Assembly: GCA_001773955.1 (NCBI GenBank)
Contig: MEYH01000003.1
Location: 1-37,491 of the forward strand
Length of the DNA stretch: 37,491 bases
Reading direction: 5' to 3'
DNA from: Candidatus Sediminicultor quintus
GTDB taxonomy: Bacteria; Atribacterota; Phoenicimicrobiia; Phoenicimicrobiales; Phoenicimicrobiaceae
Position numbers and translations under genes: made by a program. The notes under the pieces are model-generated. The model ran no database searches. It was not told where the DNA came from and saw nothing but the letters and a program-made list of their open reading frames with translations. Below, piece after piece: positions 2,159 to 36,152 of the stretch. Every line of letters begins with the position of its first letter. Position 1 is the stretch's first letter.

Positions 2159-2992
2159 ATGGCGGAGATAAAAAAATTCAAACCTACTTCTCCTGGGAGA
2201 AGATTTATGACCATTTCAACCTTTGATGAAATAACTACTGATAAGCCAGAAAAATCTCTAACCGTAGGACTTAAAAAAAGAGGCGGAAGAAATAATCAAG
2301 GCAGACTAACAGTTAGGCATCAAGGCGGTGGAAGTAAGAGAAAGTATAGAATAATAGATTTTAGGAGTCAAAAAGAAGGAATTCCGGCAAAGGTTTTTAG
2401 TATTGAATATGATCCTAATCGTTCAGCACGAATTGCTTTACTTAAATACTATGATGGAGAAAAGAGATACATCCTATGTCCGGCAAATTTAAAAGTGGGA
2501 GATGTAATTATATCCGGAAGAGATGCAGATATTAAGGTAGGAAATTCAAAATCATTAAAAGATATCCCTACTGGTACATTAATTCATAATATTGAATTAA
2601 GATCAGGACAAGGCGGCAAATTAGTTCGTTCAGCCGGAGCAGTAGCTCAACTTATGGCCAAAGAAGGAAAATATGCTCATGTTAGATTACCTTCAGGGGA
2701 AGTGAGGTTAATTCATTTGGAGTGTAAAGCCAGTATCGGGCAAATTGGTAACCTTGTTCATGGAAATTTATCGCATGGTAAGGCAGGCAAAAGTAGATGG
2801 TTAGGGATAAGACCAGCAGTTAGAGGGGTTGCCATGAATCCTATTGATCATCCCATGGGCGGTGGAGAAGGAAAGAGTTCTGGGGGCAGACACCCTTGCT
2901 CTCCAACCGGTATGCTGGCAAAGGGTTATAAGACCAGAAAAAAGAATAAACCTTCAGATAAATATATTGTAAAAAGAAGGACGAAAAAATAG
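2159..2992 (+). CDS. rplB: 50S ribosomal protein L2
   Basis: L2 is a primary 23S rRNA-binding protein needed for subunit joining and peptidyl-transferase activity. The 277-residue product has the N-terminal [12 protein letters not shown], the RNA-binding [13 protein letters not shown] stretch, [18 protein letters not shown], and the C-terminal [26 protein letters not shown], which includes the conserved histidine near the catalytic centre. The length is normal. A weak AAGGATGG ribosome binding site precedes the ATG, so some coupling to rplW is plausible. Confidence 0.97.
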
Positions 2993-3017
2993 TAAATAAG
3001 GGAGGCAGTTGTTTTAG

Positions 3018-3302
3018 ATGTCTAGATCTTTTAAAAAGGGACCTTATATTGATGAAAAATTATTAAGTAAAATTAGAGAACTAAATCAGAAGAGACAGAA
3101 AACTATCATTAAAACTTGGTCTAGAAGGTCAACTATTTTTCCTATAATGGTTGGACATACCATTGCTGTACATAACGGTAAAAGACATATCCCAGTGTAT
3201 ATTACCGAAAACATGGTAGGTCATAAATTAGGAGAATTTTCCCCTACTAGGATTTTTAAGGGGCATAGTGCTCATACTGAAAGAGCAACCTCGTTAAAGT
3301 AG
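3018..3302 (+). CDS. rpsS: 30S ribosomal protein S19
   Basis: S19 forms a head dimer with S13 near the A-site tRNA. The 94-residue product matches the family end to end: [62 protein letters not shown]. The ribosome binding site is AAGGGAGG. A 157-base A+T-rich spacer separates it from rplV. This is longer than usual for this operon but, unlike most gaps here, shows none of the recognisable repeat words. Confidence 0.96.
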
Positions 3303-19591: not shown

Positions 19592-20050
<459 letters not shown>

Positions 20051-24462: not shown

Positions 24463-24661
24463 ATATATGTTACATAATTATAACCCAAAAAGTAAACAAA
24501 ATGGTAGGGGCACGATGCATCGTCCCCAAGGTAAACAGAAGACAATAAAACATAAAGGGCACAATTCATTGTGCCCCTACAAAATCATAAAAACTGTAAA
24601 CTGATAACCGATAACTGAAAAATTGTATTTGAAACTAACGACTATTTATTCACTAACCAAG
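24463..24661 (+). repeat. GTAGGGG element and family-1 end after argF
   Basis: A GTAGGGG...CCCCTAC element occupies 24504-24580. Its left hairpin (GGGGCACGATG/CATCGTCCCC) has lost one base in the right arm; its right hairpin is GGGCACAAT/ATTGTGCCC. Then follows the ACTGTAAACTGATAACCG module, a TTGTATTTGAAA link and CTAACGACTATTTATTCAC words. Confidence 0.75.
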
Positions 24662-24985
24662 AAGAGTTCACGATGTCTGTATATTTAATAACTTACAACT
24701 AATTTGATTTGATTAAAGAACAAAATAACTTTATAATTATGACAGGAAAAACTTTTCACTAGCGACTTATTTATCTTGCATTTTGTATTTTAACTAACGA
24801 CTATTCACTATTCACTAACGACTAAGAGTTCACGATGTCTGTATATTTAATAACTTACAACTAATTTGATTTGATTAAAGAACAAAATAACTTTATAATT
24901 ATGACAGGAAAAACTTTTCACTAGCGACTTATTTATCTTGCATTTTGTATTTTAACTAACGACTATTCACTATTCACTAACGACT
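24662..24985 (+). repeat. Exact 162-bp tandem duplication upstream of cdaA
   Basis: Positions 24662-24823 and 24824-24985 are identical by base-by-base reading. Each unit starts AAGAGTTCACGATGTCTG, contains TTGATTTGATTAAAGAAC, and ends with family-1 words CTATTCACTATTCACTAACG. The shared repeat words at the unit ends are a natural site for unequal recombination. The second copy ends about 20 bases before the cdaA start. Confidence 0.9.
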
Positions 24986-34837: not shown

Positions 34838-34894
34838 TACTAATCTTAAATTAGTTTAATTGTATTGGGATTTCCTTTTTCTGTAAGCCCTAAT

Positions 34895-35121
34895 TAGTCG
34901 TTAGTGAATAGTGAATAGTCGTTAGTTTTAAATACAATTTTCAGTTTCGAATTATCAGTTTACAGTTTATTGTAAGGGAGTATGATAATAGAACATCTAC
35001 ACACTTTGGGTTTTCTATAAACTGGCAATTTGTAACTTAAACTCTATAACTTATTAATCATTAATGTATTTTATTTACTAAATACTATTCACTAACGACT
35101 AACGACTAAATGCTAACGACT
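34895..35121 (+). repeat. Family-1 element, copy C (thioesterase-fxsA)
   Basis: About 225 bases run from TAGTCGTTAGTGAATAGTGA to the inverse words ATTCACTAACGACTAACG. It shares with copies A and B the TTTTCAGTTTCG/ATCAGTTTACAG block, ATGATAATAGAAC, TTTTCTATAAACT and ACTTATTAATCATTAATG. The TTGACA of the other copies is degraded to ATACAA, so the promoter-like pair is absent. The preceding 34838-34894 and following 35122-35172 show nothing notable. Confidence 0.7.
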
Positions 35122-35620: not shown

Positions 35621-36058
35621 TTGATTATAGGTTGTGGAATAGATTTAGTTAAAATAGAAAGAATAGAAAAAATAATTAAAAAGTGGGGAGATAATTTTAT
35701 TTTCAGGATATTTACCTCCTTGGAGAAAGAATATTGTGAAAAAAAGAAGGGCAACAAATATCAATCTTATACCGGAAAATTTGCTGCCAAAGAAGCACTA
35801 TTAAAAGCATTGGGATTAGGATTAAGAGAGGCTAACTGGAAAGAGATTGAGATAAAAAATAATGAACTAGGGCAACCCGTCATAGACACATCTGGAAAAT
35901 TAAGAAATATCGCTTCAACAAAAGGAGTTAGCAAATATTTTATTAGCATTTCTCATACCAAAGAATATGCTATAGCTGAAGTAATCTTAGAAAGTTCAGC
36001 TCAGAAGACAGAAGTCAGAAGTAGGGGCACGATGCATCGTGCCCCTACAAAATTATAA
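35621..36058 (+). CDS. acpS: Holo-[acyl-carrier-protein] synthase with repeat-derived tail
   Basis: AcpS transfers 4'-phosphopantetheine from CoA to acyl carrier protein. The product has IIGCGIDLVKIERIE (Asp8), FAAKEALLKALG (Glu58, Lys62) and FISISHTKEYAIAEVILE, which is where most AcpS proteins end (about residue 124). The remaining 21 residues (SSAQKTEVRSRGTMHRAPTKL) are encoded by AGAAGACAGAAGTCAG words plus a perfect GTAGGGG palindrome, so the tail is translated repeat DNA. The start is TTG. nnr follows, a frequent neighbour of acpS. Confidence 0.92.
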   Translation: MIIGCGIDLVKIERIEKIIKKWGDNFIFRIFTSLEKEYCEKKKGNKYQSYTGKFAAKEALLKALGLGLREANWKEIEIKNNELGQPVIDTSGKLRNIASTKGVSKYFISISHTKEYAIAEVILESSAQKTEVRSRGTMHRAPTKL

Positions 36059-36133
36059 AAACTGTAAACCGATAACTGACAACTAAAAACTTGTTTTTAA
36101 AACTAACGACTATTCACTATTCACTAACGACTA
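36001..36133 (+). repeat. Repeat cluster overlapping the acpS 3' end
   Basis: The cluster comprises AGAAGACAGAAGTCAGAAG words, then the simplest GTAGGGG element (36021-36048), a perfect 28-base palindrome with half GTAGGGGCACGATG. Next come ACTGTAAACCGATAACTG, a TTGTTTTTAAAA link and the right family-1 words CTAACGACTATTCACTATTC up to the nnr ribosome binding site region GGGAG. The first 58 bases lie inside the acpS reading frame. Confidence 0.85.
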
Positions 36134-36152
36134 ATTTAATGGGAGTTATCTT

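Follow-up and report, generated by a model that had tools for sequence, protein, structure and literature searches.

The window analysed here is a stretch of 37,491 nucleotides forming contig C3 of a 1.95-Mb draft genome (G000; 113 contigs), and it carries acpS between fxsA upstream and nnr downstream, an order that matches congeners (Table 1). Both AcpS domain models match the product over their full length and above their curated cut-offs (PF01648 of Pfam: 62.6 bits against 25, E=4e-17, residues 4-119; TIGR00516: 92.7 bits against 59.8, residues 1-127). The TTG start is also used in congeners, and the relatives of the gene in databases, where named, are Atribacterota MAGs. Since this ORF is the sole AcpS match of the genome, the gene is presumably functional.

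Table 1. Features at the 3' end of acpS and the RAYT gene of the same genome (positions refer to the window unless another contig is named)
Feature	Position	Strand	Basis or remarks
acpS, holo-[acyl-carrier-protein] synthase	35621..36058	+	145 aa including tail; TTG start; stop TAA 36056-36058
20 foreign C-terminal codons, SAQKTEVRSRGTMHRAPTKL	35996..36055	+	alignment with six congeners and further family members
Heptamer words CAGAAGA CAGAAGT CAGAAGT	36002..36022	+	sequence; no stop in any frame
Perfect 28-nt palindrome, GTAGGGGCACGATGCATCGTGCCCCTAC	36021..36048		GTAG-type REP, double-tagged (collapsed) form
Right flank, AAAATTATAAAAAC, then ACTG-type heptamers	36049..36101	+	resembles flank of REP dimer 24557-24611
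First in-frame stop, TAA	36056..36058	+	begins 8 nt past the palindrome
ACTAACG/ACTATTC heptamer array ahead of the next gene	36102..36136	+	array shared by congeners at the same position
RAYT gene	G000:C105:21280-21936 (L119 reverse complement 2565-3221)	-	REP dimers on both sides

Residues 1-125 of AcpS align with relatives, and from codon 126 the frame reads SAQKTEVRSRGTMHRAPTKL and then stops. Codons 125-145 (35993-36055) pass through three CAGAAG heptamers and the GTAGGGG palindrome, which confirms from the sequence that a perfect palindrome and heptamer words lie in the acpS frame with a stop just beyond, as an earlier note on this DNA had stated. That note had also counted a tail of 21 codons; the frame does run through the repeats, but Ser125 is common to several congeners, so that the foreign part comprises 20 codons (126-145). 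The description of the tail as basic, repeat-derived and missing from the family holds, the net charge by count being about +4 and the tail being absent from every relative checked. As the frame contains no other in-frame stop, translation of the tail would be expected to reach the TAA at 36056.

The end of acpS has been replaced by repeat-derived sequence. Six congeners gave an acpS match; their proteins are 128-129 aa long and end in LFDK, THDK, LFDK, LLGK, LLDK and ILDK (pattern ...V[IV]LE[S/G]xx(D/G)K, then the stop). In four other family genomes with an intact acpS 3' end the protein measures 126-128 aa; in one further family genome the gene is cut off by the contig end. The tail was searched for in 61 genomes and 27 further loci and was absent wherever the 3' end was read, so that the check proposed in the earlier note, whether repeat-free relatives share this tail, turned up no relative that has it. 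In the alignment, native codons 126-129 (LFDK or similar) and the native stop are missing from the window's acpS. In congeners a conserved segment that begins with AAATYA comes after the native stop, with heptamer arrays beyond it, and a search downstream of the palindrome found no LFDK-like end, native stop or AAATYA flank. The acpS-nnr spacer is short, at 94 nt versus 131-701 nt in the congeners that have both genes on one contig. Lys129 (AAG) of the window's AcpS falls on the conserved native Lys position.

In an AlphaFold model of the protein, confidence extends as far as residue 124; the tail, with pLDDT values of about 48-57 (48 for residues 131-140 and 57 for residues 141-145), is predicted to be disordered. 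Sequence matches to solved AcpS chains end at about residue 124-127. The tail falls outside the catalytic fold and has probably been tolerated without being selected; it shows no sign of function, and a neutral, tolerated addition would be the simplest view of its effect on AcpS.

The heptamers at 36002-36022 belong to a repeat family (D3) shared with a long array at 19709-19905, and the right flank of the palindrome (36049-36101) is 89% identical to 24557-24611 (family D17). The hairpin of this stretch has a predicted energy of -26 kcal/mol. The repeats themselves are far beyond chance expectation, given 124 genomic copies of the palindrome core pattern versus 3 for a reversed-pattern control and a folding z-score of -5.6; the same core pattern occurs in 33-182 copies in eight congeners. 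The window holds other repeat structures. The fxsA-acpS pair is flanked by inverted arms of TTAGTCG/ACTAACG heptamers (34892-34941 and 36087-36136; 50 nt, 96%), and an array behind a gene is often the reverse complement of one ahead of a gene. A spacer elsewhere in the window holds a 162-nt tandem duplication (24647-24808 and 24809-24970, 98% identical). On the minus strand at 19661-19963, a CAGAAGA/CAGGAGA array yields a 100-aa ORF of CLLSSVF repeats, which is probably spurious because none of the six reading frames of these heptamers contains a stop.

The palindromes of this genome match the GTAG-REP super-family in being short (within 20-40 bp), in high copy and mostly intergenic, and a RAYT (REP-associated transposase) gene is flanked by the same repeats (PF01797, 31.5 bits against a cut-off of 23; NF047646, 69.1 bits, under its cut-off of 80). 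The GTAG tag stands on one side only in 65 of 79 sampled copies from the genome, and the acpS copy is one of the 7 in which it is paired (GTAG...CTAC). Close pairs have their tags outside in 17 of 24 cases, with a commonest spacing of 49 nt, the same arrangement as in the head-head dimers that Di Nocera et al. (2013, PMC3733652) describe for GTAG-REPs; at acpS the copy stands alone. The acpS-nnr spacer of genome G007 contains CAGAAGTCAGGAGTAGGGGCACGATGCATCATGCCC and, 64 nt on, GGGCACAATTCATTGTGCCCCTACAAAATCATAAAAAC, an apparent uncollapsed REP pair, and the acpS REP resembles a fusion of the left half of a REP with the right half of its partner. Since REP and heptamer flanks are stereotyped, the G007 match to the acpS spacer may not be orthologous. 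Within the sampled loci the palindrome lies inside a plausible gene only in acpS and one RAYT; a hit inside a hisD-like ORF (L086) proved to be a chance, non-palindromic match to the pattern. The RAYT ORF reads a further REP pair in frame as CRGTMHRARPS, which includes the REP peptide RGTMHRA of the AcpS tail, and the GTAG tag of the REP downstream of the RAYT gene overlaps its stop codon.

Repeats sit on gene ends in this genome and its relatives, mainly in the form of arrays, from which some genes take their stop. Periodicity at lag 7 climbs at the stop codon in G000 and congeners (0.37-0.46 around the stop versus roughly 0.28 inside genes), with no comparable climb at lags 6 and 8. The gene ends sampled come from about 200 kb chosen around palindromes, so the rates hold for that sample and not for the genome at large. 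By a strict test, 6 of 149 G000 genes have their stop covered by an array versus 0 at a control position 150 nt upstream, acpS alone has a REP within its end, and loss of the stop would add at least 16 codons at 34 of the 149 ends (~23%). The length of the AcpS tail is thus within chance. The CAGAAG words are open in every frame, since 7 and 3 have no common factor and none of the phases of the array holds a stop; two of the three frames of the palindrome at the acpS end are open and the third gives TAG. In most family members the MtnA C-terminus and stop come from heptamer arrays (L093 2168-3232, L151, L153, L155, L200-L208), and MtnA ends vary by species (LVVSR, LVFSR, LVC/SVC, VVNI, VVNTADRKTVISNK). 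Two further candidates were rejected. A gamma-carbonic anhydrase locus (L101 3576-3857; G000:C48:59675-59953) is a pseudogene with an internal deletion frameshift, which reads past its native TAA into GTATCGA heptamers (congeners have intact genes of about 172 aa), and L098, which by eye is LigA-like, overlaps repeats at its end but has an ordinary-looking C-terminus.

We think it probable that the tail arose in one lineage through loss of the acpS 3' end by deletion or unequal exchange, which brought repeats into frame and left a tail that was tolerated. An event of this kind, as we infer it, would have taken away native codons 126-129 together with the stop and the former 3' flank, with a short similarity between AGAAAGT at the acpS end and CAGAAGT in the downstream array perhaps guiding the exchange. 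A stop-free CAGAAG array and a REP would thereby have been placed in frame directly after codon 125, with translation running on to the first in-frame TAA past the REP, and a head-head REP dimer would have collapsed to one palindrome via deletion between GTGCCC direct repeats. This account needs the fewest steps because the native end and flank are gone, the spacer is only 94 nt and repeats like those lying further downstream in G007 abut codon 125. It agrees with the retention of a short native end, stop and conserved flank in all six congeners, with the apparent uncollapsed pair in G007 and the 7 of 79 double-tagged copies, and with the frequency of long open extensions near gene ends. Against it stand the failure to find an intermediate or a sister strain and the donor part of the array, which was not located, the junction TTCAGCTCAG having no second copy among the sequences examined. 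The Lys129 coincidence leaves some residual probability for a junction at the stop codon itself, in which case codons 126-128 would have drifted.

The earlier note had read the locus as evidence that repeat elements are inserted at stop codons or move them. Arrays do lie on gene ends, as the 6 of 149 versus 0 and MtnA illustrate, but a simple insertion at the acpS stop is excluded because the native LFDK-stop and its flank are gone and not displaced downstream, and one gene is insufficient to show the general claim. A version with two events, in which a REP/heptamer segment entered at codons 125-130 near the stop and the displaced native end was lost later, appears unlikely. REPs are mobile-like, this genome holds a RAYT flanked by them, Lys129 is kept in position and in many relatives MtnA takes its stop and last codons from arrays; yet nothing of the native codons, the stop or the flank survives in the downstream sequence, the spacer is shorter and not longer than in congeners, and the second event is an added requirement. 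Repeats often cause misjoins, and in a draft metagenome-type assembly of 113 contigs the true acpS could end as in congeners, with repeat reads wrongly joined to it. Such an error is improbable here, as the fxsA and nnr order matches congeners, on its acpS side the junction (AAAGTTCAGCTCAG) consists of unique sequence that offers no shared k-mer for a misjoin, and an identical double-tagged palindrome occurs in six other flanks. ACP is acidic, and a tail with its positive charge might serve as a basic arm helping AcpS to bind it; a selected extension of this sort is nevertheless highly improbable for a tail that is confined to one genome, is predicted to lack order and contains RGTMHRA, a plain product of the REP frame that is also found inside a RAYT ORF.

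Several known systems resemble the locus in part. GTAG-REPs are high-copy palindromes, mostly in head-head dimers, that associate with RAYTs and can occur within ORFs or overlap them (Di Nocera et al., 2013, PMC3733652), and the present genome shares the high-copy GTAG palindromes, the head-head dimers and a RAYT; the acpS copy differs in being double-tagged, in being read in a frame that avoids its TAG and in having heptamer words ahead of it. The enterobacterial RU-1 fused to the ECA3499 amidase of Erwinia (Delihas, 2007, PMC2759123) likewise has a repeat unit joined to the 3' end of a gene for a conserved enzyme, but it is a 127-bp MITE-like unit supplying most of the tail, whereas acpS has a short heptamer run and one REP. 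In Beggiatoaceae, TAACTGA heptamers overlap the stops of upstream genes and some code protein-end residues, as in MurG (MacGregor, 2015, PMC4679880); the likeness lies in intergenic heptamer arrays over stop codons of upstream genes, and the difference in one fixed heptamer there as against several heptamer families here, with stop-free words at acpS. Rickettsia palindromic elements are in-frame insertions in conserved proteins (reviewed in PMC10969869) and so resemble acpS in that a palindromic repeat is read in frame within a conserved protein; those of R. conorii carry a CGTC tag (PMC3733652), whereas the acpS element is tagged GTAG and the native end has been lost. REP ends supplying stops, REPs at ORF ends, repeat fusion eliminating a stop and heptamers over stops are already published. 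No work on tandem repeats in Atribacteria came up in a literature search.

The acpS tail is a clear, single instance of a type of event already known, ordinary in kind and useful as a clean case. It is cleanly polarised, the ancestral end being visible in six congeners, and it records the conversion of noncoding repeat DNA into the C-terminus of a probably essential enzyme. The repeats around it document a GTAG-REP/RAYT system in Atribacterota, a phylum unmentioned in the text of the 2013 survey (PMC3733652). More tentatively, and with rather less than even confidence, the heptamer arrays of the family could form a recurrent 3' gene boundary that gives some genes their stop and final codons and whose turnover rewrites C-termini between species, with acpS as the extreme case. 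Taken together, acpS and MtnA suggest that spacers filled with repeats can rewrite the ends of proteins again and again, an effect that would be measurable across the family.
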